Shown here: piece after piece, positions 903 through 19,247 of the stretch
How positions within the stretch are numbered: the first letter of the stretch is position 1
Layout of the letters: each line of letters starts with the position of its first letter
Origin: a virus
Length of the DNA stretch: 46,636 nt
Direction: 5' to 3' (one strand)
IMG/VR virus record: IMGVR_UViG_3300025012_000149
Span: 1 to 46,636 of that record
Position numbers and translations under genes: made by a program
Notes under the pieces: generated by a model
Databases searched by the model: none
Seen by the model: the letters and a program-made list of their open reading frames with translations, nothing else
What the model was told of the DNA's origin: nothing

Positions 903-2153
903 TTATCCCAACAGTTTCCAAGTTCTTTTGATGGCGCCTCTCGTCGAAAAACTCCATTGAGGGCTCCAATCCGGCTTTATCATATATGGACGATTAACAT
1001 ATATTGTATCCTTATTTATATCAATCCCCCAACATCTTATTGATGTCTGTTTGGAGTTGCTATCAATAAGATCGACAACATAATAATCTTTTCCTTTACC
1101 GGTTTTCTTTTGTATTACATTTCGTGGGATTGCCCACACACAATCGCAAAGTTCCGGATCATACTCGCTTATCGGCGGTATACACATTTCTTCCAGTCTT
1201 CTCAACAACTTCTCTGACATTACCATATCGAACGGAAAAATGCCAGACAAAGTTGTGGCGTGCTCGATTTTTTGTTCCTCGGAGAAGTCCGGTTGACCAC
1301 GATATTCCTCAATGTTTTCAAGGAGTTGTTTTTCGGTTTTAGGACGATTAAAAACAATAGAGCACCACATATGTTTTGTATGCTCAAAACGATTGTCCAT
1401 AATGGACTTTAATGATTCGGACTTCACAAGAACATCAAGAGATTTTTTGTTTAGTTTTTGATAGGAGATATTTTCATTAAACAGAAGTTCTTCAATGGTG
1501 TTGAATGGGCGATTGTTGATGATTTGTTCCATTGCTTTGTCACCCAAGCCTTTAAGTGATGTGAAAGGCTGGACGAGCGTTTTATCGTCATTCGGATCAA
1601 TCTCCCAGTTTGCGGTGGATTTATTAATATCGCAAGGAGAGATTGTAAAGTTTAAACTTTTCACAAGATTGATGGCTTTTTCTTTTTTATCTTCTGATTC
1701 CGCGTCTAAATATGCCGAACTCCATTCAGCAGGGTAATAGTTAAGAAGATAAGCACAAGTATATGAAATGATTGAATAAGAGATCGAATGCGAACGATTA
1801 AACGAATATTTTGAAAAGAAAATCATCTTTTGCCAAAGTTCTTCAGCATCAGAAAGTTTAATCTTTTTTTCCAAACACCCATCAATAAACTTCTGATATA
1901 ATCTATTTTTAACCTCTTCTTCTTTTCCAGTACCCTTCTTTGTTAATACCTTACGAAGCAATTGTCCTTCGTCAAGCGAAATATCCTTGCCGAGTTTATG
2001 AGCAATTTCAGACAACTGTTCTTGAAAAATACAATTATGAACTAATATATTGTTGGCAAAAAAGTTATTATTTTTTTCTACCTCTATGTCATATACTTTT
2101 TTAGGAATTTCGTTCCTTGTAATAGATTTTATCTTTATTCTTTTGATTTCCAT
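903..2153 (-). CDS. dnaE: Split-intein C half (IntC) fused to C-terminal part of DNA polymerase III alpha (DnaE)
   Basis: Residues 1-40 are an intein C-terminal fragment: a VYDIEV block followed by NNNFFANNILVHN, ending in His-Asn (Asn codon 2034-2036). The next residue is Cys (2031-2033), the +1 nucleophile. From there the 376-residue extein reads as DnaE: CIFQEQLSEIA matches the usual YQEQVMxIA segment, then SFNRSHSISYS and CAYLLNYYPAEW, then the helix-hairpin-helix region (FTSLKGLGDKAMEQI) and a divergent OB-like C-terminus. Together with the extein of 3019-5637 (776 aa) this makes 1152 residues, the normal size of DnaE. The start ATG overlaps the end of the endonuclease gene by 19 bases, with a GGGAG ribosome site upstream. 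Function requires trans-splicing with the other half. Confidence 0.93.
   Translation of the reverse strand: MEIKRIKIKSITRNEIPKKVYDIEVEKNNNFFANNILVHNCIFQEQLSEIAHKLGKDISLDEGQLLRKVLTKKGTGKEEEVKNRLYQKFIDGCLEKKIKLSDAEELWQKMIFFSKYSFNRSHSISYSIISYTCAYLLNYYPAEWSSAYLDAESEDKKEKAINLVKSLNFTISPCDINKSTANWEIDPNDDKTLVQPFTSLKGLGDKAMEQIINNRPFNTIEELLFNENISYQKLNKKSLDVLVKSESLKSIMDNRFEHTKHMWCSIVFNRPKTEKQLLENIEEYRGQPDFSEEQKIEHATTLSGIFPFDMVMSEKLLRRLEEMCIPPISEYDPELCDCVWAIPRNVIQKKTGKGKDYYVVDLIDSNSKQTSIRCWGIDINKDTIYVNRPYMIKPDWSPQWSFSTRGAIKRTWKLLG
2034..2153 (-). other. Split intein, C-terminal fragment (40 aa)
   Basis: Forty codons from the ATG to the Asn immediately before the Cys+1 extein residue. The block F-like VYDIEV and block G-like ILVHN are intact, with the catalytic penultimate His and terminal Asn present. 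The length and independent Met start are like those of naturally split inteins such as gp41-1 and NrdJ-1. It pairs with the fragment at 3022-3309. Confidence 0.92.
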
Positions 2154-2977
2154 TTTTCTATTTCTCCCTTTCTTAAATCTTCTAAAAATTCTGTTGATAA
2201 ACTTCCATAAATTCTACAAATTTCATAATTATTTTTAATCGCTTTTTGTGTATAAAATTCATCAACATATTTTTGTTTTTTCATTCTTTGTGTTAAAACA
2301 AATTTATCTTCATTTCCGTGCCAATAATCACCATCATATTCTATAATAAGATGTTTGTTAATAATATAAAAATCATATATATGATTAACATTATCAATTT
2401 TATACCCCGATATTATATCATCCTCACAAACATTTTTGAGTTTATCTTCAAAATCTATTTCTTCTTGAGATCTGTTAACATTTTTTTTCATATCGTGATA
2501 AATTAACATATGATGAGATAATCCAGATCTGTATTTAAAAATCTGATTACAAATTTTACAAATTATTTTTTTTTCTTTTCCGCAAGTTGCTTTGTGTGCT
2601 CGTAAAGAAGTGTTTGTAGAAAACTCTTTATTACAATTCTCACAATTAAAAACTCCAAATTGAATAATTTTATCTCTAAATTTTGAAGCAGTTATTTTAT
2701 CTTTCCACTCTTTAGATTGTTTTCTACCTTTATATCTTCTTTTTAATAGTTCATTTGAACATTTTTTACTACAAGCAATATAACTCCTTACTCTACTCTC
2801 GGGAACTCGTTCTTTTTTTCCACACCTACGACAATAAACATCTACTCTGTTTTTTTCATATTTATTTTTTCTAAAAAGAGATAAACATTCCTTTGAACAC
2901 GTTTTTGTTATTCTTTTTGATTGAACATTTTTAACAAATTCTTTCTCGCAAACCTCACAAACAAATTGTTTATTCAT
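2135..2977 (-). CDS. Free-standing homing endonuclease with zinc fingers and Vsr-like nuclease domain, inside the fractured dnaE
   Basis: The 280-residue protein begins with four cysteine-rich modules: CEVC...CSKEC, CRRC...CSKKC, CENC...H...C and a C2H2-type CKIC...HHMLIYH. The C-terminal third has EEIDFEDKL followed by a strand-turn-strand DFYIINKHLIIEYDGDYWHGN, the pattern of the Vsr/EDxHD nuclease fold seen in the endonucleases associated with fractured genes in marine phage sequences. It lies exactly between the two split-intein halves of DnaE and in the same orientation, overlapping IntC by 19 bases. Its role would be to cut intein-free dnaE alleles and drive spread of the element. Its ribosome site is presented by a hairpin (2978-3001). 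The nuclease family assignment is by motif. Confidence 0.82.
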   Translation of the reverse strand: MNKQFVCEVCEKEFVKNVQSKRITKTCSKECLSLFRKNKYEKNRVDVYCRRCGKKERVPESRVRSYIACSKKCSNELLKRRYKGRKQSKEWKDKITASKFRDKIIQFGVFNCENCNKEFSTNTSLRAHKATCGKEKKIICKICNQIFKYRSGLSHHMLIYHDMKKNVNRSQEEIDFEDKLKNVCEDDIISGYKIDNVNHIYDFYIINKHLIIEYDGDYWHGNEDKFVLTQRMKKQKYVDEFYTQKAIKNNYEICRIYGSLSTEFLEDLRKGEIEKWKSKE

Positions 2978-3003
2978 ATATCAAGATCCTCCTCTTGATA
3001 TAT
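2976..3003 (-). promoter_or_regulatory. Hairpin carrying the endonuclease ribosome binding site in its loop
   Basis: On the minus strand ATATCAAGA, loop GGAGGA, TCTTGATAT form a perfect 9-bp stem (2978-2986 with 2993-3001). Two more A-T pairs extend it into the ATG at 2975-2977. The Shine-Dalgarno sequence is the whole loop, and the start codon is partly in the stem. This suggests structural control of endonuclease translation, as is known for several T4 homing endonucleases; the direction of the effect is inferred. Confidence 0.75.
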
Positions 3004-3018
3004 AAGTAGTTCAATTGT

Positions 3019-5637
3019 TTAATTAATTATTAAAATTTCATCTTCAATTGATAAATCTTTAACCATTTTTAACCCATTTGAAGTATAAATTAAATGCTCT
3101 CCAGTTAATTCTATACATCCTTCTTCGGTTGAAATAGTAAAGGTTTCTTTATATCCCATAAATTTTCCATTTATTATTTTATCTTCTTCGATATATTTTT
3201 TCGTTATATTATAAGAAGGTAATAAAACATCAAAAAGATTATTTTCTACTATATTTTCAATATTTATTTCTCCATCTTCTGTTAAAATTTTCACATCCCC
3301 CGCTAGACAATGACCAAAAGTGGATCCCAATATTTTTTCCAAAATCGGATGAATATATTTTATTGTATCTGGATTTTCTTTTGAATTTAGATAAAGTTTA
3401 TCAACGTTTGCCTGCAAAGTTCCAGGTCGCATGATACTTGTCACATCACTCAACTCATTTATTGAATATGGTTTAACTATTTTACAAAAGTTTTGAGCAT
3501 TTTTTTCTGTAAACTGAAATATAGCAATCCAGTTTCCATTGTGAAAAGCATTTTCCCAAACATTTCTATCATTTAGATTTAATTTATCTGGATGAAGATT
3601 TTCATTATAATACTTCCAAACATCTTGTATTTGAGGATCTGTATTATTATGATTTCGCTTTAAAATTATACGAATACATTGCTCAATAATCCGCAATGTT
3701 TTTAAACCAAGTAAATCAAATTTTAAAATTCCTCGGCGTTCCAAATGGCGAACTGCCTGCCCTTCCGTCCACGGTGAGACGCACTTTCCTCCATTATTGA
3801 TCAATGGCATCCATTTATTTAAATCTTCTCCAATACAAGTTCCTCCTGCGTGAACACCATGAGAACGAACCTGACCTTGAAGTGCTTCTACTCGTTTTTT
3901 AACTTCTGGATATTGTTCAAAAAACCCACGAAGCGTTTTACTGTATCTACAATATTCCTCAAAAGTTGGAACATAAACGCCAGCAGATTGATCGTGTTCT
4001 TTTTTCGCTAATGGTATTGCTTCGCTATCCATTTTACTCGTTACATAGTTCACTTCGCCAAATGGAATATCATAATATTTACTAATATCTTTGATAAGCG
4101 ATTTTAACTGAAGAGTATTAAAGTTTGAAATAAGAACAACGGAGTTTTCTCCCCATTCTTTAATCAAGTGTTCTTTTAGTTTTACTGGCTCGGAAAAATC
4201 TACGTCCAGATCAGGGAAGTCCACAGCATCTCTACGTAAAAAGCGTGAAAACTGAAGATTGTATTTAATCGGATCGATTTGTGTTATATCTAATACATAT
4301 GCCAATAAAGTTCCCGCCCCAGAACCTCTTGCTGGTCCAATCAAACAAATCTTTCTCGCCTCCTCCACAATCGCCTTCATTGTTACAAAGTATTTTGAAA
4401 ACCCTCGATCCTTTATGACATATAACTCTTCCTTCAATCTCTCAACATATTCTTTTTTCTTGTTTAACCCCTTTTTCTTCAATCCCTCGATCGCCAACTT
4501 CGCCAAATAACCGTTTTCATCTTCTCCACTTAGAACGACAAAGTTCGGCAACCTCACCTTGTTATCCGGTTCAAACTCTTCAACGAGAACGAAAGCAATA
4601 TCGTGTGTTCTCTCCAATGTCTCCCGAATGAAATCATCATCATAAGAATATCCACACATCTTGGAATATTTCTTATAATCTGACCATAATTGGTCGCCGT
4701 TTTTCGGATACAAAGTATATCCGATTTCCTCAAGATTTTCGGGTATTTCGTCGCTCAGCCAAGAGGGTTTTTCGCGATTTGATTTTCCAAGCCATCCGAG
4801 GCGCTTATAAAGTTCTCGATCCCGCCAGGCATCTGGTCTTGGATAATGCGCATCAACACAAGAAATAACTTTAAAATCATATTCTTTTGATAACTCAATA
4901 ACGAGCGTATTTAATCTGTGTTGTTCTGGAATATTATTCCATTGTAACTCGCCGAAAAAATGTTCATTACCAAATATGGAAAGCATTTTTTCTATCGGAG
5001 TTCTCATAAGTTCATAGAGTTCCGAATGGGTTTTTTCTTTATTTTGCCAGATGACTTGTGCCAAAATTCCGCCAATACACCCACTTGTAGTTATTAAACC
5101 TTCACTGTAGGTTTTAAGATTTTCATAATCAATTCTGGGATATCTATAGAAGTTATCTCCTCTGTATGAAAGAGAAATAAGCTGGAATAGATTGTTTAGT
5201 CCCGTTTGATTTTTTACTAAAGTGGTTAAATGTCCTCTTCTGTTTATTTTATTTTTATGGTATCGGCGTAAATCTTCTTCATCTTCAAGAGAGATGGCGG
5301 AATGTTCTTCGTCTTTGTCGTTTTTCTTTTCTTTCTTATCCGCTTTATATCTCTCGTATTCAACCTTCCATTCTTCAACGGAATCAATGAAATAAAGTTC
5401 ACTTCCAAAAACTTGACGAAGATACTTTCCCTCTTTTTTCAGTTTTTCATATGCTTCAAGTTGATATGTAAAACCATTCATATTACCGTGATCGGTCAGA
5501 CAAAAAGCATCCAGACCGTTTTCCCAACAATAACGCATATGTTCTTCTGGATGACCCAAGGCATCGAACGGAGAGCCAATATCGCTGTGATGATGAAGAT
5601 TTACGAACTTTATTGATGGTTTTTGTCGTTCGGACAT
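3019..5637 (-). CDS. dnaE: N-terminal part of DNA polymerase III alpha (DnaE) fused to split-intein N half (IntN)
   Basis: This family C replicative polymerase starts with a PHP domain (FVNLHHHSD near residue 12, then CLTDHGN). The catalytic core follows: GPARGSGAG near 432, PDLDVDFS near 470 with the metal-binding aspartates, RSHGVHAGG near 590 and FDLLGLKTL near 640. Extein residues 1-776 end at STFGH, where a normal DnaE would continue into the YQEQ segment. The protein instead continues CLAGDVKILTEDG..., an intein N-terminal fragment of 96 residues, and stops. The start overlaps the upstream small gene by 28 bases. The remainder of the enzyme is encoded at 903-2153. The split site differs from the cyanobacterial split DnaE site, which lies at the FNKSHS segment and is uninterrupted here. 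Confidence 0.95.
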   Translation of the reverse strand: MSERQKPSIKFVNLHHHSDIGSPFDALGHPEEHMRYCWENGLDAFCLTDHGNMNGFTYQLEAYEKLKKEGKYLRQVFGSELYFIDSVEEWKVEYERYKADKKEKKNDKDEEHSAISLEDEEDLRRYHKNKINRRGHLTTLVKNQTGLNNLFQLISLSYRGDNFYRYPRIDYENLKTYSEGLITTSGCIGGILAQVIWQNKEKTHSELYELMRTPIEKMLSIFGNEHFFGELQWNNIPEQHRLNTLVIELSKEYDFKVISCVDAHYPRPDAWRDRELYKRLGWLGKSNREKPSWLSDEIPENLEEIGYTLYPKNGDQLWSDYKKYSKMCGYSYDDDFIRETLERTHDIAFVLVEEFEPDNKVRLPNFVVLSGEDENGYLAKLAIEGLKKKGLNKKKEYVERLKEELYVIKDRGFSKYFVTMKAIVEEARKICLIGPARGSGAGTLLAYVLDITQIDPIKYNLQFSRFLRRDAVDFPDLDVDFSEPVKLKEHLIKEWGENSVVLISNFNTLQLKSLIKDISKYYDIPFGEVNYVTSKMDSEAIPLAKKEHDQSAGVYVPTFEEYCRYSKTLRGFFEQYPEVKKRVEALQGQVRSHGVHAGGTCIGEDLNKWMPLINNGGKCVSPWTEGQAVRHLERRGILKFDLLGLKTLRIIEQCIRIILKRNHNNTDPQIQDVWKYYNENLHPDKLNLNDRNVWENAFHNGNWIAIFQFTEKNAQNFCKIVKPYSINELSDVTSIMRPGTLQANVDKLYLNSKENPDTIKYIHPILEKILGSTFGHCLAGDVKILTEDGEINIENIVENNLFDVLLPSYNITKKYIEEDKIINGKFMGYKETFTISTEEGCIELTGEHLIYTSNGLKMVKDLSIEDEILIIN
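3022..3309 (-). other. Split intein, N-terminal fragment (96 aa)
   Basis: It starts at Cys1 (codon 3307-3309) with CLAGDVKILTEDG (block A), contains LTGEHLIYT (block B, with the T-x-x-H pattern), and ends at a stop after DEILIIN. No endonuclease domain lies in the polypeptide; the nuclease is the separate gene that follows. The size matches the N halves of fast natural split inteins. Confidence 0.93.
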
Positions 5638-5828: not shown

Positions 5829-6822
5829 TCTTATTGATCCTGTAAATCGGATTCAATTTTCTTCTAATTGGATTATATTTCCATTTGGTTTTATCACGAT
5901 GATGCCGTTTACTCTCTATCGGCAGCAAAATAGGCTCACTTCTAATCATTTCTCTTTTCTCTTTTGATTCCATATACTTACAATAGGTTTCCCAACTGTC
6001 AATGGTATAATACCACGGAATCTCTATTCGCACAATGTTTTCTTCGTCTTCAAACTGGAAAACATCATCCAGAGTATAAACATCTTTAACCACATATTTA
6101 TCTGCCGATCTATGAATGGTAAAAACTTCGTGGACAACAGAACGATTTTTAACTTCTATTATATTGTTTGAATATGTTTTCCGCGAAGCATTTAAAAGCT
6201 TTTTCTTTATTCTGACAACATCTTTGTATAGAATAATAAAACCCGTATAAAGTCCTTGTTCAACGGTTTGTCCCTTGTATGATAACAAAACCGTCTTATT
6301 ATTTTTCATAACATTTCTACTGGAAAAATCAATCGTCTCTGAAGAATATACACCATAAGGAAATGAAACATAAAATCGTGTTGGAGATATCCACTTTGTT
6401 ATATTACGACTAATGTTGTGGGCAACCGTTGCTCCATAAATAACACTCCAAGCAAAACTATTCATTGTTTTGTGTTGAAGAGTCTTTATTGGAATATAAA
6501 AGATCGGTATTTTTCTCTCATACTTTGCCGCCATTCTTATAGAAATGAACTTTCCCTTTTCTATTGACTCCGGATCTTTTAGCCATTCACCGATTCTGTA
6601 TTTTAATAAAGGTTGAATGTCATCATTACAAATGATCCAAATCGTTTTACAACCAGCGCGAGCAAGTTCCATCAGACATTTTTCAATGGCAACCAAATCT
6701 CTGCCAATCGGCATCATACATTCGGGCCACTCAAACCCAAAATCAAGCGCACCTCCAGCAACCGGAATGATCCCCGCCAAGTGATCGTGCGATGATCTTG
6801 CGCGTATTCTTTCTTCAGACAT
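5809..6822 (-). CDS. Nucleotidyltransferase-like protein (GT-A fold start)
   Basis: 337 residues. The N-terminus (about 16-55) reads AGIIPVAGGALDFGF, then ECMMPIG, then AGCKTIWIICNDD. This is the signature layout of NTP-transferase/sugar-nucleotide pyrophosphorylase enzymes: a glycine-rich loop, a P-x-G step, and a second strand ending in an acidic residue. The Gly-rich loop is shorter and lacks the classical basic residues, so substrate and activity are uncertain. The rest (positions 130-270) is beta-rich without a motif I recognise, and the C-terminus is basic. The stop/start junction with the upstream gene is at 6822. Confidence 0.6.
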   Translation of the reverse strand: MSEERIRARSSHDHLAGIIPVAGGALDFGFEWPECMMPIGRDLVAIEKCLMELARAGCKTIWIICNDDIQPLLKYRIGEWLKDPESIEKGKFISIRMAAKYERKIPIFYIPIKTLQHKTMNSFAWSVIYGATVAHNISRNITKWISPTRFYVSFPYGVYSSETIDFSSRNVMKNNKTVLLSYKGQTVEQGLYTGFIILYKDVVRIKKKLLNASRKTYSNNIIEVKNRSVVHEVFTIHRSADKYVVKDVYTLDDVFQFEDEENIVRIEIPWYYTIDSWETYCKYMESKEKREMIRSEPILLPIESKRHHRDKTKWKYNPIRRKLNPIYRINKNEDKSE

Positions 6823-7799
6823 TATTCTGTATATCCAAATCCAGATAAATAATCTTTGCTCATTTCTTCAGAAGAGATGTATTTACTCACTATTCTATTA
6901 TACAAATAAGAATCCAACACTCTGACTTGTTCTTGATTTAATAAATCTTCTTCAGTTATATTCATTTGTGTTATATTTGAATCCTTGTTAAAAGCATATT
7001 GATTTTTATCGATCGGTTGAACAATACGAAACTTGTGTTCAAGCTTTATTTTTCTTGCTATTTTTTTAATCTCTATAGCAGTATTCCTATTTATAAAATC
7101 CTGGGCATATAGTTTAATCGTGAAATGTGTATAATCACCTTGCTCGTTTTCATATTCTTCTACAGTTGGCAAAGAAATACAAATGATTTGTTTTGTACCA
7201 AAAGTATTATCTGCTCTGACTCTACAATAGAAATATATTTTATTTAATGTCTTTTCCGGCTCATTGTCACAAAAATCAAATGAAGTTCTTATAATATTAA
7301 AACCTCGTTTTATATACTTTACTGTATCAAACCAATCAATACATCTTAAACTATTGTATCTTTTCTCTGGAACGGGAAGGTTTATTATTTTGTCGTCATC
7401 AAAAAGAAATAGGTTATCGTAAGTAATACGAAATATTCTATGTTTATTAGTTGTGATTTTTAATGTATTATTATCTTCCAGTTCTATTTGATTGATATAT
7501 TGCGGAACCATTTTTATCATTCCGCTTATTGAAAGTGTAAATATGATTCTTTCATAAACTTCAAGTTTACTAATCCCAAACTCTACTTCCTCGCCGTTCA
7601 TATTTTTTAATATGTGTTTTTTATTACGAATATTTACATTTTTAGTTAAAACGCTTTTATCAAAGAAATCAAATAGTTGTGGCGGATTATAGTTTGATAA
7701 GAGCAATGGAACATTATTCAAGTATGAATAAATAACCGCACTCAACGAAGAACCGATGACCAAATATTCATAATGATATTGATGTTTCATAAGGGACAT
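6822..7799 (-). CDS. Unrecognised protein with Rossmann-like N-terminus
   Basis: 325 residues between thyX and the nucleotidyltransferase-like gene, sharing one base with each neighbour (stop/start overlaps). Residues 10-35 read EYLVIGSSLSAVIYSYL then PLLLSN, like a dinucleotide-binding beta-alpha-beta unit (IGxSLSA in place of GxGxxG). The remainder is rich in Asn, Ile and Tyr without catalytic motifs I can name. A flavin- or nucleotide-binding enzyme is possible, but no family is assigned. Confidence 0.65.
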   Translation of the reverse strand: MSLMKHQYHYEYLVIGSSLSAVIYSYLNNVPLLLSNYNPPQLFDFFDKSVLTKNVNIRNKKHILKNMNGEEVEFGISKLEVYERIIFTLSISGMIKMVPQYINQIELEDNNTLKITTNKHRIFRITYDNLFLFDDDKIINLPVPEKRYNSLRCIDWFDTVKYIKRGFNIIRTSFDFCDNEPEKTLNKIYFYCRVRADNTFGTKQIICISLPTVEEYENEQGDYTHFTIKLYAQDFINRNTAIEIKKIARKIKLEHKFRIVQPIDKNQYAFNKDSNITQMNITEEDLLNQEQVRVLDSYLYNRIVSKYISSEEMSKDYLSGFGYTE

Positions 7800-8906: not shown

Positions 8907-9173
8907 TTAACTTTCTTTATCAAAAAGATAAAATTTTGCATTTAAACGAGATCCCGTAAAATCATAGTGATTTATTTTTCCCACAGAAGGACTATCTTTC
9001 CTTGTTGAAGAAATCATATATACACTCCAAAGAGGATATTCGATAGATTTAGTAGTTTTTTTTACAACTAATCCAATCCATTCGCCATCATTTAATGAAC
9101 TTATATGTGTATATGTCATTTTCCATTTAAATAAATCCCCAACCTTCAAAGAAGAAGGTTCAATTTCTTTCAT
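8907..9173 (-). CDS. Small 'GDLF' family protein
   Basis: 88 residues from the ATG at 9171-9173, chosen because it forms an ATGA overlap with the GroES stop; the open frame extends further upstream to 9212. The sequence has SLKVGDLFKW, then WIGLVVKK, then WSVYMIS, the pattern of the dispersed small family in this phage, with a longer C-terminal tail (SRLNAKFYLF). Function unknown. Confidence 0.75.
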   Translation of the reverse strand: MKEIEPSSLKVGDLFKWKMTYTHISSLNDGEWIGLVVKKTTKSIEYPLWSVYMISSTRKDSPSVGKINHYDFTGSRLNAKFYLFDKES

Positions 9174-9466
9174 TCTACGACTCCGATTACATAATTTTCC
9201 GGAATTACACAAAAAAGATAATCTCCTACAATAACTTCTTCAATACCGATCGTTTGAACAACAATCTTTTCTCCCTCTTTCAGATCCAAACCAGTGTTTA
9301 GAGAAACACCTCTTACAAAACAAAGAGTTGTTTTATCAATGGCGAGTTGAGGTTTTTCATTGGCATACTCAAAATCAAAACCCATAAGATCGCCACTTTT
9401 AATCTTTTTTGTTTCTTTCAAAATCTTTTCAATCAAAACATATCTATTGACTGGTCGGAAGTTCAT
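9170..9466 (-). CDS. 31: GroES-like co-chaperonin (T4 gp31-type)
   Basis: 98 residues from the ATG at 9464-9466: NFRPVNRYVLIE at the start, LKEGEKIVVQTIGIEEVIVG, then FCVIPENYVIGVVE, the beta-barrel layout of GroES and phage co-chaperonins. In T4, gp31 replaces GroES so that GroEL can fold the capsid protein gp23, whose gene is also present here. The open frame runs to 9517, but the first 17 residues lie inside the upstream gene and do not match the family. Confidence 0.85.
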   Translation of the reverse strand: MNFRPVNRYVLIEKILKETKKIKSGDLMGFDFEYANEKPQLAIDKTTLCFVRGVSLNTGLDLKEGEKIVVQTIGIEEVIVGDYLFCVIPENYVIGVVE

Positions 9467-9467
9467 C

Positions 9468-9737
9468 TTATTTAACCCTCTTTCCGCAACAACATTCGCC
9501 ACAATTACAACCCACATCTTCTGTAGAAGAGATTACTTCGGAAAATGCTTTACGATACTTTCTTGATTCTTCCGCAAGTCCTTGAAGATCCTCGTCTTTT
9601 AGTTTTGGTGGTGGCGGTAGAGAACCAGAGATTTCGGTTTGAACATCATCTTGTTTACTTCCAAACATTCTTTCCCAATTTTTTTGATAAAGTTTACTAC
9701 CATAAAACTCTGTAAATGATTTATTCGAGTATTTCAT
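9468..9737 (-). CDS. Unrecognised small protein with Cys-rich C-terminus
   Basis: 89 residues. The first half is charged and aromatic (FTEFYGSKLYQKNWERMFG) and the middle has a proline run (SLPPPPKL). The end is GCNCGECCCGKRV, five cysteines in ten residues, which suggests metal binding. It lies one base upstream of the GroES-like gene and overlaps the upstream gene by 4 bases. No family is recognised. Confidence 0.65.
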   Translation of the reverse strand: MKYSNKSFTEFYGSKLYQKNWERMFGSKQDDVQTEISGSLPPPPKLKDEDLQGLAEESRKYRKAFSEVISSTEDVGCNCGECCCGKRVK

Positions 9738-9979
9738 TTATTATAACCCTCGATCGTCAATAGGTGTTCAAACTTCTTAAACTCATCCAAAAAAAAGATA
9801 TTCCACAATCTCTTTTGACATCTGGCACAATAAAAACCAACTGATACATTGTTTCCGATCGATGATTCAATACCGCCAGTCAACAAGAAAATATGATTTT
9901 GTTTGCCCGAATCAGATTCAGGACAATATTCCCGTTGTAAGTGTTTAGGCAATAAATGATTTAGTTTCGTTTGTTTCAT
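9734..9979 (-). CDS. Unrecognised small protein, possible zinc-binding
   Basis: 81 residues. One CPES and one CARC motif, separated by about 30 residues, could form a zinc ribbon, but the first pair has only one Cys. The first 20 residues are basic. It is in the run of small genes between GroES and NrdJ and shares a 4-base overlap with the next gene. Function unknown. Confidence 0.6.
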   Translation of the reverse strand: MKQTKLNHLLPKHLQREYCPESDSGKQNHIFLLTGGIESSIGNNVSVGFYCARCQKRLWNIFFLDEFKKFEHLLTIEGYNK

Positions 9980-9994
9980 ACAGATAACCCGTCT

Positions 9995-10288
9995 TTACGC
10001 AACCATATTCACTTTTTCTTTTACGAGTTCTTCGATCTCTTCGATCGTTTGTTCAGAAGCGTTTTCTTGATCTAGAGATAACTTCAATTTTACGAGACGA
10101 ATAACCTTTCCGAGCAACTTATGATTAATACGATCCGCAAACTCTTCTTTGAGTTGCTTTGTATCTTCCTTGAGAACATTTGCTTCGCGTTGGATTTCAA
10201 AAAATCGCTTTACAAACTCTTCTACTGCTTGTTGATCGTAAGGAATGTCCTTCTTGGGACGACCACGACCGCGTTTTTGTTCTTCCAT
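9995..10288 (-). CDS. AT-hook plus coiled-coil small DNA-binding protein
   Basis: 97 residues. Residues 5-13 are KRGRGRPKK, a classic AT-hook. Residues 20-65 form a helical, charged stretch ending LLGKVIRLVKLK, a layout reminiscent of the GapR/DUF2312 nucleoid proteins, and an acidic helix closes the protein. Likely a DNA-binding architectural or regulatory protein of the phage; the GapR resemblance is weak and by eye only. The start is one base after the stop of the upstream gene. Confidence 0.65.
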   Translation of the reverse strand: MEEQKRGRGRPKKDIPYDQQAVEEFVKRFFEIQREANVLKEDTKQLKEEFADRINHKLLGKVIRLVKLKLSLDQENASEQTIEEIEELVKEKVNMVA

Positions 10289-10289
10289 T

Positions 10290-10547
10290 TTATGCTCCTT
10301 GTTTTACGAATTTGTAAAATCTAAATTCAGCATTACCATTATATTCCGAATACATTTCTTTACACATTATTGGACCTTGATCATATAAAAAATGTAAATA
10401 TCTGAAATCATCGATATCTTTTTCAATAACGATTGACCACCAAAACCAATCATCGTGTTTTGAAGAAATCACATAGATCATATCGCCGATTTCCACATCA
10501 TCGGCGGAAGACACGAGCAACCACTTGCCGGGTGGCAGTTTCACCAT
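10290..10547 (-). CDS. Small 'GDM/GDL' family protein, first gene after a promoter
   Basis: 85 residues: DVEIGDMIYVIS, then WWSIVIEK, then LHFLYDQG, a divergent member of the small dispersed family. A sigma-70-like promoter (10554-10582) sits directly upstream, with the expected RNA start almost on the annotated ATG and no visible ribosome site. Translation may therefore be leaderless, or the true start may lie further in. Function unknown. Confidence 0.6.
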   Translation of the reverse strand: MVKLPPGKWLLVSSADDVEIGDMIYVISSKHDDWFWWSIVIEKDIDDFRYLHFLYDQGPIMCKEMYSEYNGNAEFRFYKFVKQGA

Positions 10548-10553
10548 ATTTAG

Positions 10554-10582
10554 AGAATAGCAGAGAGAGGTGGTGGTGTCAA
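10554..10582 (-). promoter_or_regulatory. Sigma-70-like promoter
   Basis: TTGACA (10577-10582), 17-base spacer, TATTCT (10554-10559) on the minus strand. It lies in the short gap between the nrdJ stop (10601) and the next gene, so it can restart transcription towards groES and thyX. Its -10 and the preceding GC are identical to those of the promoter at 17864-17892. Confidence 0.75.
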
Positions 10583-10600
10583 GAAGAAAAAACTAAAGGG

Positions 10601-13600
10601 TTATGAGCACTTACTATATCCACAATGTATACAAGAAACACACCCCTCTTTGTAGTTGAGAGCATCTTCTTGCTTACATTCTGGGCAAACTTTATCTCCC
10701 TCTGGTTTTTCTCCGTCTAAAATATATGTTTTTAACACTCTCGCAATACAGCGAGAAAACGAAAACATATCACTATCTTTGTCCTTTTGAAGTTGTTCTA
10801 CAATATAGTTTATCTTAGCTCCGTGTCGTAAACCCAAAGAAATCATTCGAGTTAATGCGGAATGATTTGGATTATCAAAAATCTCAATAACATCTTTGAT
10901 AACAATCTCGCTACCGTTCTCTCCAATTCTTAAATCATAAACATTTTTTTTAGTTTTATATTTTCGTTTTTCCAAAGATGCTTTTTTATAAGATTTGGGA
11001 ACTTCAATATATTTCGATAACCCCCCAATAACTTCATATGGTTTATCTTCCATAAGACCAACAGCAATCGTCCAGTTTTCTCCTTTAAACTTCATTTGAT
11101 GAATATCGCATAAAAGTTTATCTGGTCTTTTGGGGGCGTTATATTGAGGAAATATTTCATTTACATTTTGTTTTTTTTCATTATTTGCAATAAGGACTCC
11201 AGAGCGTGAACCGTCTACATAAACAGTAATACCCTTTAAACCCTTTTTCCACGCTCTTTTATACAAACTTCCAACAACTTCAGAAGTTGTTCCTTTTGGA
11301 AGATTTATTGTTGAAGAAATACTATGATCAATATTTTGCTGAATAACCGATTGTATATCAACTCTTTTTTCCCAATCTATTTGATCGCTTTCAATAAAAT
11401 AATCTGGCATTTTATCTGTACCAAAGAGTGTTAAATATTCTTTAACATTATGATGATAAACTTTATATTCTTTCCACTTATCTCCAACATCATCTATAAA
11501 ATCAGCCCTTTCGCTTTTTTCATTATGGTTTAGTTTCCTTCTACGAATATAATGATTTCTAAATACTGGCTCAATACCAGAACTTGTTTGGCTGATAACA
11601 GATACGGTGCCAGTAGGAGCATTAGTCAGTAAAGAAATATTTCTTCTACCTCTTTTTTGAATATCTTTTTGTATTTTTTCAGGAAGTCTTTTAATGAAAA
11701 AATTATTTTTTTCTTTTTCCCAATCGAACAATGGAAAACTGCCCCTTTGTTCCGAAAGATTTACACTTTCTCCATAAGCATTATTTCTTAGTATTTCATA
11801 TATTTTTCCAATAATATCTAATGATTCATTAGAATCATATTTCATTTCTAAACAGGCAATACAATCTGCTAATCCGTGAGTTCCGAGTCCTATTCGTCTT
11901 CCAGTCTTACAAGCGTTTAAAAGTTTATTCCATAACACTTTTTCGCTTTCTTCATCTACAATATTCAATATTTTTTCAAGTTTTTCTATTTCCAAATCAA
12001 CTAAATCATCTGAGAGTCGAGTAGCGATTTTAACAACTTCAGAAAATTTATTAAAATCAAAAAAAGCATCTTTGGAGAACTTATTAGATACAAAATGTTT
12101 TAGATTTATTGAAATCAATCGACAGGAATCATATTCTGACAGTGGAAGTTCAGAACAGTTTGAAACAAGTAGTCCACCAGTCCAATATGTATGTTCTTCA
12201 TCGTCAACCGATATATCATAAACTTCTTGTTTCCCTAAAGATATTATTTCTTTTATTTCATAAGTTATTTTCTGCTTATTAATGTTAGATCTATATCCCA
12301 AACATATATCATCTAGTTTTTTTGATTTATATGGTTGTATAAACCCAATCATTTCTCTAAATTTTCTTCTATCAACAGTTATATTTAAATCATAACTTTG
12401 ACGACACTCATAAACTCCATTTGAAAACTCTACGCATTTTGATTTATTTGTAGTATAATAAGAAGAAATGCCAATAGAAGAAAGCATTTGTTGAACTTCT
12501 CTAATAATCCTGAAACTTGATGCTTTTAATGTAATGCGCGTAGAAACAACAGATCCATTTGCCGAATACAAACCTCTTAAAAATCCAACAACTTTATTAT
12601 AATCACCTTTTAAAAATCTTTCAGGAATATATCTATCGTAAGTTTTTGGAAGTTCTGTAGCTATTATAGTAGTTTTAACTTCCCATCCATAATCAAAAGC
12701 CTCCCTTCTATCTTTTAAAATTAAAGAAGATATTTCAGAAGTAAAATAATCTTGATCATCTTTTCCAATACATAAATATACCGATAAATCATTAGATGCT
12801 TTATGAACAGTTCCGTCTCCAACAATCATTCCATCCATTATGTCTTGTATATTAATATTACTAGAAGATATCAGTCCGCCTTTACAAATATCAATAGCAT
12901 AAGCATTTTTAACTTCTATTTTCTCTCCTTCGCACATTACACGATGATTTTCTGTTCCAATAAAACTTCCAGCAGTCGTTGAATAATCAAAAACTTCTTT
13001 AACTCCTGTTTTCCATTTTTTCGTTATTTTGGTCCACCGCTTCCCCGACCAAACAAAATCACCCTCGCTAACTTCTCCGATCGTTGAAATACCATTTGAA
13101 GTTAAAACAGTTGCCCAAGAAGGCTGGCAGGGATTGACAGAGACGGATCTAAACGATTCATAACATTCCGCCGGAAGATTATTTCTTACATTGTCCCACA
13201 TGATCAACCCGGGTTCTGCTGTATATGTAGCCGATTTTACAATCAAATCCCATAAAGTTTTTGCTTTTATTATTTTTGAAACTTTAGGATTATTTGAATC
13301 AATCGGAAACTTAAGTTCAAAATTCCCATCCTTCTCCACTGCTTTCATAAACTCGTCAGATATTTTAACAGAGACATTTGCTCCCGTAGTTTTTTTTAAA
13401 TCTTGTTTCATTACAACAAATTTTTCAACATCTGGATGTCTTACATCCATTGAAATCATTAAAGCTCCACGACGATTATTTTGTCCAACCATTCTACAAA
13501 CATATGAATAAAAATCAGAAAAACTCCAAGCTCCAGTAGTAGTTCCAGCAGAGTTATTCACTCCACAACCATCTGGACGAAGAGTAGAAATATCTATTCC

Positions 13601-13996
13601 AACTCCACAACGACGCTTAAAAAGATTAGCAAGTTCCTTCCCTTTGTCAATAATAGAAGACATATTATCTTCTGGAGATGCGATTACAACACAGTTGCTT
13701 AATGATACATTTGCGTAATCATTTCCTATTCCATACATTGGACTACCTTGAGGAATAATATTTTTAAATCCCTTTAATAATTCATAAATTTCTTCTTCGC
13801 TCATAGAATTTGGATATTTTTTTTCTATTCTCGCAAATTCTTTTGCCAATCTTCTATGCATATCATCGGGAGTCTTTTCTAAAAGATTTCCTTCTTTATC
13901 TTTTAAAGCATATTTTTTAATCCACACATCTGTCGCAAGTTCATCGCCATTAAAATATTCAAGTGTAGATTTATACACCTCTTCTTTGCTATACAT
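10601..13996 (-). CDS. nrdJ: B12-dependent (class II) ribonucleotide reductase NrdJ with an in-frame intein
   Basis: This enzyme reduces ribonucleotides to deoxyribonucleotides using adenosylcobalamin. Extein landmarks are LSNCVV (Cys102, radical-site cysteine), RRCGVGIDIS, GAWSFSDFYSYV, RRGALMISMD, then VNP at 287-289 and, after the intein, CSELPLSEYDSC (catalytic NPC motif plus downstream). The sequence continues with NAPTGTVS, NHYIRRRKLN, and a C-terminal zinc-type tail CPEC...CVSCIHCG, typical of NrdJ. Residues 290-613 are an intein, leaving about 807 residues of enzyme. The gene overlaps the helicase stop by 8 bases. Unlike T4, which has NrdA/B, no small subunit is needed. Confidence 0.95.
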   Translation of the reverse strand: MYSKEEVYKSTLEYFNGDELATDVWIKKYALKDKEGNLLEKTPDDMHRRLAKEFARIEKKYPNSMSEEEIYELLKGFKNIIPQGSPMYGIGNDYANVSLSNCVVIASPEDNMSSIIDKGKELANLFKRRCGVGIDISTLRPDGCGVNNSAGTTTGAWSFSDFYSYVCRMVGQNNRRGALMISMDVRHPDVEKFVVMKQDLKKTTGANVSVKISDEFMKAVEKDGNFELKFPIDSNNPKVSKIIKAKTLWDLIVKSATYTAEPGLIMWDNVRNNLPAECYESFRSVSVNPCQPSWATVLTSNGISTIGEVSEGDFVWSGKRWTKITKKWKTGVKEVFDYSTTAGSFIGTENHRVMCEGEKIEVKNAYAIDICKGGLISSSNINIQDIMDGMIVGDGTVHKASNDLSVYLCIGKDDQDYFTSEISSLILKDRREAFDYGWEVKTTIIATELPKTYDRYIPERFLKGDYNKVVGFLRGLYSANGSVVSTRITLKASSFRIIREVQQMLSSIGISSYYTTNKSKCVEFSNGVYECRQSYDLNITVDRRKFREMIGFIQPYKSKKLDDICLGYRSNINKQKITYEIKEIISLGKQEVYDISVDDEEHTYWTGGLLVSNCSELPLSEYDSCRLISINLKHFVSNKFSKDAFFDFNKFSEVVKIATRLSDDLVDLEIEKLEKILNIVDEESEKVLWNKLLNACKTGRRIGLGTHGLADCIACLEMKYDSNESLDIIGKIYEILRNNAYGESVNLSEQRGSFPLFDWEKEKNNFFIKRLPEKIQKDIQKRGRRNISLLTNAPTGTVSVISQTSSGIEPVFRNHYIRRRKLNHNEKSERADFIDDVGDKWKEYKVYHHNVKEYLTLFGTDKMPDYFIESDQIDWEKRVDIQSVIQQNIDHSISSTINLPKGTTSEVVGSLYKRAWKKGLKGITVYVDGSRSGVLIANNEKKQNVNEIFPQYNAPKRPDKLLCDIHQMKFKGENWTIAVGLMEDKPYEVIGGLSKYIEVPKSYKKASLEKRKYKTKKNVYDLRIGENGSEIVIKDVIEIFDNPNHSALTRMISLGLRHGAKINYIVEQLQKDKDSDMFSFSRCIARVLKTYILDGEKPEGDKVCPECKQEDALNYKEGCVSCIHCGYSKCS
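12158..13129 (-). mobile_element. Intein in NrdJ with LAGLIDADG-type endonuclease domain
   Basis: 324 codons, from Cys1 (codon 13127-13129, CQPSWATVLTSNG) to the terminal Asn (12158-12160, GGLLVSN), inserted between Pro and the catalytic Cys of the NPC motif. Block B is GTENHRVM. Two dodecapeptide-like motifs, MDGMIVGDGTV and FLRGLYSANGS, mark a LAGLIDADG endonuclease. The C-terminal splice block VYDISV...GGLLVSN ends Ser-Asn rather than the usual His-Asn, which other inteins tolerate. The reading frame is intact, so splicing and homing may both be active. Confidence 0.92.
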
Positions 13997-19068: not shown

Positions 19069-19153
19069 CTGTGAGAGTAGGATTCGAACCTATGATGGGC
19101 TTTTCGCCAACAGATTAACAATCTGCTCTCTGCTTCCGCTCGAGTACCTCACA
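19069..19153 (-). tRNA. tRNA with anticodon GTT (Asn) and a long variable arm
   Basis: 85 bases including discriminator G. The acceptor is TGTGAGG with TCTCACA (one G-T). The D arm is CTC/GAG, and the anticodon arm is GCAGA-TTGTTAA-TCTGT with GTT at 19117-19119. A long variable arm contains GGC GAAAA GCC, and the T arm has loop TTCGAAT with one A-C mismatch. No CCA is encoded. The architecture is that of bacterial tRNA-Tyr (type II), but the anticodon reads Asn codons. Confidence 0.85.
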
Positions 19154-19157
19154 TTAA

Positions 19158-19229
19158 ATCCGAAGGTGGAACTTGAATCCACATCTCTCCTCTACAATAA
19201 GGAGGCTTTACCAGTTAAGCTACTTCGGA
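19158..19229 (-). tRNA. tRNA, probably Thr (anticodon TGT)
   Basis: 72 bases including the discriminator. The acceptor TCCGAAG/CTTCGGA is perfect, the D arm is GCTT/AAGC, and the T arm is GTGGA-TTCAAGT-TCCAC. The best anticodon stem is CTCCT/AGGAG, leaving an 8-base loop TATTGTAG in which U33-TGT-A37 is the natural reading. A 7-base loop would need a poorly paired stem. The discriminator is T and no CCA is encoded. Confidence 0.75.
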
Positions 19230-19247
19230 TTTTATTCTATTATTTAG

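Follow-up and report, generated by a model that had tools for sequence, protein, structure and literature searches.

Fractured genes, reportedly described by Dassa et al. in 2009, are said to combine split inteins with Vsr-related (EDxHD) homing endonucleases. In cyanobacteria, the split dnaE genes lie far apart, with no nuclease between them. The closest published case of a phage polymerase is PolB of the Pseudomonas jumbo phage MIJ3, whose two open reading frames (ORFs) carry a split intein and are separated by a free-standing endonuclease gene (PMC6892783). Here we describe the dnaE gene of an uncultured phage, found in the IMG/VR virus record IMGVR_UViG_3300025012_000149 (positions 1 to 46,636; this whole stretch of 46,636 nucleotides is referred to as the window). 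The gene is very probably fractured, with a split mini-intein and a nuclease gene between its halves, so that trans-splicing would yield a family C polymerase and homing would have spread the insert.

Comparison with described systems

The window layout shows the defining features of fractured genes as these are reportedly described: a conserved phage enzyme gene, a split intein, a free-standing Vsr-type nuclease in the gap and a predicted control element before the nuclease. It differs in that the gene encodes the family C replicative polymerase, in its GFLIFQEQ site and in having relatives that are broken many times. MIJ3 PolB is likewise a phage replicative polymerase broken in this way, but it belongs to family B, its nuclease is reported as HNH and block A of its intein is given as SVDGSTILNTSL (PMC6892783). 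The cyanobacterial split DnaE inteins (Ssp, Npu) share with the window a natural split intein in DnaE, similar sizes of the halves and the chemistry of a Cys at position +1, whereas their Y/CFN site lies 76 residues downstream of the window site (alignment to PRK07373 and PRK09532; residues 117-258 of P0002, the protein carrying the C-terminal DnaE piece, align with residues 37-179 of PRK07373, the cyanobacterial C half), as the initial annotation had anticipated in calling the two sites different. Among solved structures, the window intein matches the Spl DnaX mini-intein (2e-12), while the cyanobacterial inteins (PDB 4kl5/2keq) are only weakly similar (E 3e-4). Because the sites are 76 residues apart and other inteins are the closest among solved structures, the window intein is, judged by sequence, not the cyanobacterial DnaE intein.

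The initial annotation also held that this would be a new natural split intein in a phage family C polymerase. This stands insofar as a full-text literature search, whose coverage did not extend to the enzyme list of Dassa et al. 2009, found no phage DnaE split intein; the window is not unique, however, since at least seven other contigs carry such an intein.

The broken dnaE gene and its intein halves

The predicted architecture was borne out in its parts, as two collinear dnaE ORFs with intein ends and a free-standing nuclease gene between them are present as described, including the lengths of both intein halves and the terminal His-Asn (Table 1). The three ORFs lie in three different frames, the nuclease ORF overlapping that of the intein C half (IntC) at 2135-2153, and the exteins contain no internal stops. 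The three frames, together with the ribosome-binding-like sites for the nuclease and IntC, argue against a frameshifted contiguous intein. The G+C content is 36-37% in the exteins, 23.6% in the intein N half (IntN), 24.6% in the nuclease gene and 22.5% in IntC, and this abrupt A+T-rich stretch marks IntN, nuclease gene and IntC as one insert.

Table 1. Parts of the broken dnaE locus, with positions in the window
Feature	Position	Strand	Remarks
ORF P0001, 872 amino acids (aa)	5637-3019	-	N-extein 776 + IntN 96
DnaE N-extein, 776 aa	3310..5637	-	PHP, palm/NTPase, most of fingers; PDLDVD and KFD motifs; ATG at 5637
Intein N half, 96 aa	3022..3309	-	Cys1 (CLAGD...), block B TGEH; stop 3019-3021; TIGR01445
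RNA hairpin at nuclease start	2974..3005	-	AGGAGG in loop, AUG in 3' arm; paired changes in relatives
ORF P0003, predicted free-standing homing endonuclease, 280 aa	2135..2977	-	Separate from both dnaE halves; two C2H2 zinc-binding motifs, then Vsr/EDxHD-type domain (EYDGDYWHGN)
GGGAG ribosome-binding-like site for IntC ORF	2164..2168	-	Within 3' end of nuclease gene; from sequence
ORF P0002, 416 aa	2153-903	-	IntC 40 + C-extein 376
Intein C half, 40 aa	2034..2153	-	Ends LVHN; ATG at 2153; TIGR01443
DnaE C-extein, 376 aa	906..2033	-	Cys(+1) then IFQEQ; end of fingers, helix-hairpin-helix (HhH), C-terminal region; stop 903-905

In profile searches, both halves score above the model cut-offs, IntN with TIGR01445 (intein_Nterm; 29.2 bits, cut-off 24.5; residues 777-852 of P0001) and IntC with TIGR01443 (intein_Cterm; 34.3 bits, cut-off 15.6; residues 19-41 of P0002), while the match of IntC to Pfam Intein_splicing (33.8 bits) falls slightly below its cut-off of 35.8. 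All class 1 splicing residues are kept, namely Cys1, the TxxH of block B, VYD with the Asp of block F, the terminal HN and Cys+1, and the net charges of IntN and IntC are -11 and +3.

The DnaE model TIGR00594 covers model positions 1-673 on P0001 and picks up at 676 on P0002. Joined in silico after removal of the intein halves, the exteins give exactly 1152 aa and are collinear with the unbroken phage DnaE L002 (1140 aa), with 53% identity over the length and similar values for the two halves (51% and 55%). The joined protein carries the family C polymerase domains PF02811, PF07733 and PF17657 (PHP, palm, fingers), and its catalytic Asp motifs PDLDVD and KFD are conserved in the alignment with L002. 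A second, uninterrupted dnaE, which would contradict the proposal, was not found in the 46.6-kilobase (kb) record, which is possibly incomplete.

The insertion site in unbroken relatives

The intein is inserted at STFGH/CIFQEQ, in a motif of the fingers domain. Continuous, intein-free dnaE genes do exist in relatives, and in all 82 unbroken genes compared, namely L002, L003 and the 80 loci with the best coverage, a choice that favours unbroken genes, the site is intact, reading GFLIFQEQ or, in two, GYLIFQEQ. The fractured sites read GH/CIFQEQ in the window and GL/CIFQEQ in contig G001, so that at +1 the unbroken relatives have Leu (82 of 82) and these two fractured genes Cys; as a Cys-type intein requires a Leu-to-Cys change at +1, this agrees with splicing. 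Insertions in this region occur in three registers, neighbours being one residue apart: in L002 numbering 767 (L118, L119, L125, G002), 768 (the window, G001) and 769 (L127). The pattern HNC[IVM]x[FY]QEQ, which does not cover the exact register of the window, had no match among some 85,000 genomes of bacteria and archaea.

The predicted nuclease and its putative control hairpin

P0003 comprises two C2H2 fingers, additional pairs of Cys residues and, at its C-terminal end, a domain that carries the EYDGDYWHGN motif, a catalytic motif of a type conserved in four of four aligned members. An AlphaFold2 model built from this four-sequence alignment (predicted local distance difference test, pLDDT, 76; predicted template modelling score, pTM, 0.40) resembles Vsr of E. 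coli (PDB 1cw0; Z 10.5, root-mean-square deviation 2.9 over 111 residues) and I-Bth0305I (PDB 3r3p; Z 8.6), in line with the zinc-finger/Vsr-like endonuclease proposed initially. The likeness is one of fold, as identity to both is below 20%, and in P0003 zinc-binding motifs precede the domain. Pfam Vsr matches are weak (two of the four members, best E 0.023), and the PHROGs matches of P0003 bear the annotation HNH or homing endonuclease. From the structural alignments, the C-terminal domain is predicted to have a Vsr-type PD-(D/E)xK fold. No relatives of P0003 were found among 50,697 annotated phage records at E<=1e-5.

The nuclease start lies within the hairpin (z -4.3). Across five loci, 94% of the stem is paired, with no slid control close to this value, and 4 of 11 pairs are altered on both sides. 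The hairpin therefore predicts translational control of the nuclease, a form of regulation known for T4 homing enzymes.

Split inteins at or near the same site in other phages

Scans for the junction pattern and for the nuclease placed a split intein at most one codon from the window site in at least seven other viral contigs: G001 (57 kb), G002 (309 kb), L118/L124 (205 kb), L119/L128 (340 kb), L125, L127 (183 kb) and L117, the last with a C half only. A full-length P0003 homologue lies between the intein halves in five of these seven, and G002 holds a remnant. All six full-length relatives found outside the window reside inside fractured dnaE genes, five of them between intein halves at a site of the window type; the sixth, in L126, sits at a dnaE break at L002 residue 700, the IFQE site being unbroken. 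The intein halves have been retained in phages with only about 30% identity between their C-exteins.

Several candidates were discarded: the match of contig L122 to the junction pattern was due to chance; in Gordonia phage ChisanaKitsune the polymerase is annotated as a single gene, followed by an HNH gene; and gene 4 of Salicola phage SCTP-2 has a contiguous intein, but in an unrelated protein. At L024 2493-6842, a DnaE-like protein of 1450 aa carries a contiguous intein (GPKE/C ... VVHN/SGMM) with an internal Vsr-like IEYDGDYWH motif, which may be the contiguous equivalent of the split arrangement. In L020-L022, an ORF of 538 aa, judged by eye to be ribonucleotide-reductase-like, has an intein N half at its end, with a Vsr-type nuclease gene after it; this locus appears to be another fractured gene.

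Multiply broken dnaE genes in relatives

In G001, dnaE is distributed over five ORFs, the junctions falling at L002 positions 430, 584, 768 and 848, and the exteins (433+154+183+80+294 = 1144 aa) are collinear with unbroken DnaE. Pieces 1-4 are matched by IntN models, with piece 1 scoring below the cut-off, and pieces 2 and 4 by IntC models; the remaining C halves are read by sequence only, without a model match. In G002 the number of ORFs is eight; the junctions fall at 430, 463, 470, 700, 767 and 848 (L002 numbering), and an extra break near residue 660 shows no splice residues that can be recognised. IntN models match pieces 1, 2, 5, 6 and 7 of G002, although the scores of 2 and 7 are below the cut-off. 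IntC models match pieces 6, 7 and 8 as well as piece 3, there at residues 181-201 rather than at the piece start. In L126 and L127, dnaE is likewise in several pieces. The window is thus probably the simplest member of a phage lineage with a repeatedly shattered dnaE, in which G001 would have four and G002 six putative split inteins.

Individual breaks show further peculiarities. In L036, part of G002, a seven-residue extein, SGAPDID, lies between two putative split inteins (reverse complement 6379-7125); it holds catalytic aspartates of the G002 polymerase, and the joined FLSVHR-SGAPDID-TDLARRD is similar to FLSVYRKGAPDIDTDLADRD of L119. The break near residue 660 is homologous in L036 (reverse complement 9138-12141) and L127 (1917-4983), where a large nuclease gene is present but neither Cys1 nor a terminal Asn can be recognised; the break may be what remains of a decayed intein, made permanent in a variable linker. 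At L007 2166-3981, an IS607-like element (a TnpB-like ORF and a serine recombinase, assigned by eye) interrupts a nuclease gene in the fractured dnaE of G001.

Proposed mechanism and alternative explanations

In the mechanism that we favour, and in which trans-splicing, homing and control by the hairpin are what we infer, a mini-intein (96 + 40 aa) in dnaE is split where inteins usually carry an endonuclease, with a free-standing Vsr-fold endonuclease gene occupying the gap. The three ORFs would be translated separately, the hairpin masking the ribosome site and start codon of the nuclease. The intein halves would associate and trans-splice the exteins into an 1152-aa family C polymerase; the nuclease would cut unbroken dnaE alleles of co-infecting phages, and IntN, nuclease and IntC would be copied into the cut gene as a unit. 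Several points weigh against this proposal: as the record may be incomplete, the genome could hold an unbroken dnaE elsewhere; confidence in the nuclease model, with its pLDDT of 76, pTM of 0.40 and four sequences, is moderate; and intein and nuclease have diverged between phages as much as the exteins, which does not support recent transfer. Since these identities are comparable, long residence of the insert would be as likely as recent transfer. A related and rather unlikely possibility is that splicing proceeds as proposed while the nuclease is a passenger, which either fails to home at this site or has come to act elsewhere. The L126 homologue at another dnaE break and the mere remnant in G002 would fit such a passenger; against it speak the five of six full-length relatives placed between intein halves at the window-type site, and the conservation of the catalytic motif in four aligned members and of the hairpin in five loci.

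It is improbable that the inteins are dead or slow and that the DnaE pieces form a non-covalent two-subunit polymerase. Endonuclease genes can break phage genes without splicing, and the residue-660 break of G002 and L127 has a nuclease gene and no recognisable Cys1 or terminal HN; in the window, however, every splicing residue is kept, including the Cys+1 that replaces an otherwise invariant Leu, an invariant fingers-domain motif is a poor spot for a permanent nick, and the halves are retained in phages with strongly diverged C-exteins. An assembly error, frameshift or pseudogene, in which the locus would be either a decayed gene or one uninterrupted intein that has its endonuclease inside, could point to the contiguous intein of L024 as its model. 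This explanation is largely refuted and highly improbable, as each of the three ORFs has its own start, ribosome-binding sites precede nuclease and IntC, the exteins are open throughout and the layout recurs in several contigs, each with its own sequence. Joining at the RNA level, by an intron or ribosomal bypassing, would draw on the occurrence of Vsr-type nucleases in phage introns too. Distant relatives of such nucleases are also found in group II introns (PMC12350094). This is nevertheless the most remote of the alternatives: both ends of the inserted coding sequence are intein, and intron-mediated joining was rejected as Rfam returned no intron in the window at gathering score and no match at E<=1 in 1900-3400.

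Other features of the window

The ribonucleotide reductase NrdJ (10604-13996, minus strand) contains a contiguous intein (SVNP/CQPSW ... LLVSN/CSELPLS, about residues 290-612) with LAGLIDADG-like motifs, so that with the DnaE split intein the phage has two inteins of different build. At 19069-19230 (minus strand) lie two adjacent tRNA-like genes, one a tRNA-Asn and the other with an anticodon loop that is not resolved.

Implications

Taken together, the findings would mean that protein trans-splicing controls an essential phage replicative polymerase, and the locus and its relatives may provide protein engineering with new natural split inteins. The dnaE genes form a graded series, from unbroken through broken once to broken many times, together with states in which the nuclease has decayed or lies inside a contiguous intein; this series lets the origin of gene breaking be tested. 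The relatives broken many times would be a new variant of fractured genes; if all putative inteins of G001 and G002 splice, one polymerase would be built by several trans-splicing reactions without cross-reaction, which poses the question of how several split inteins in one protein escape mis-joining.
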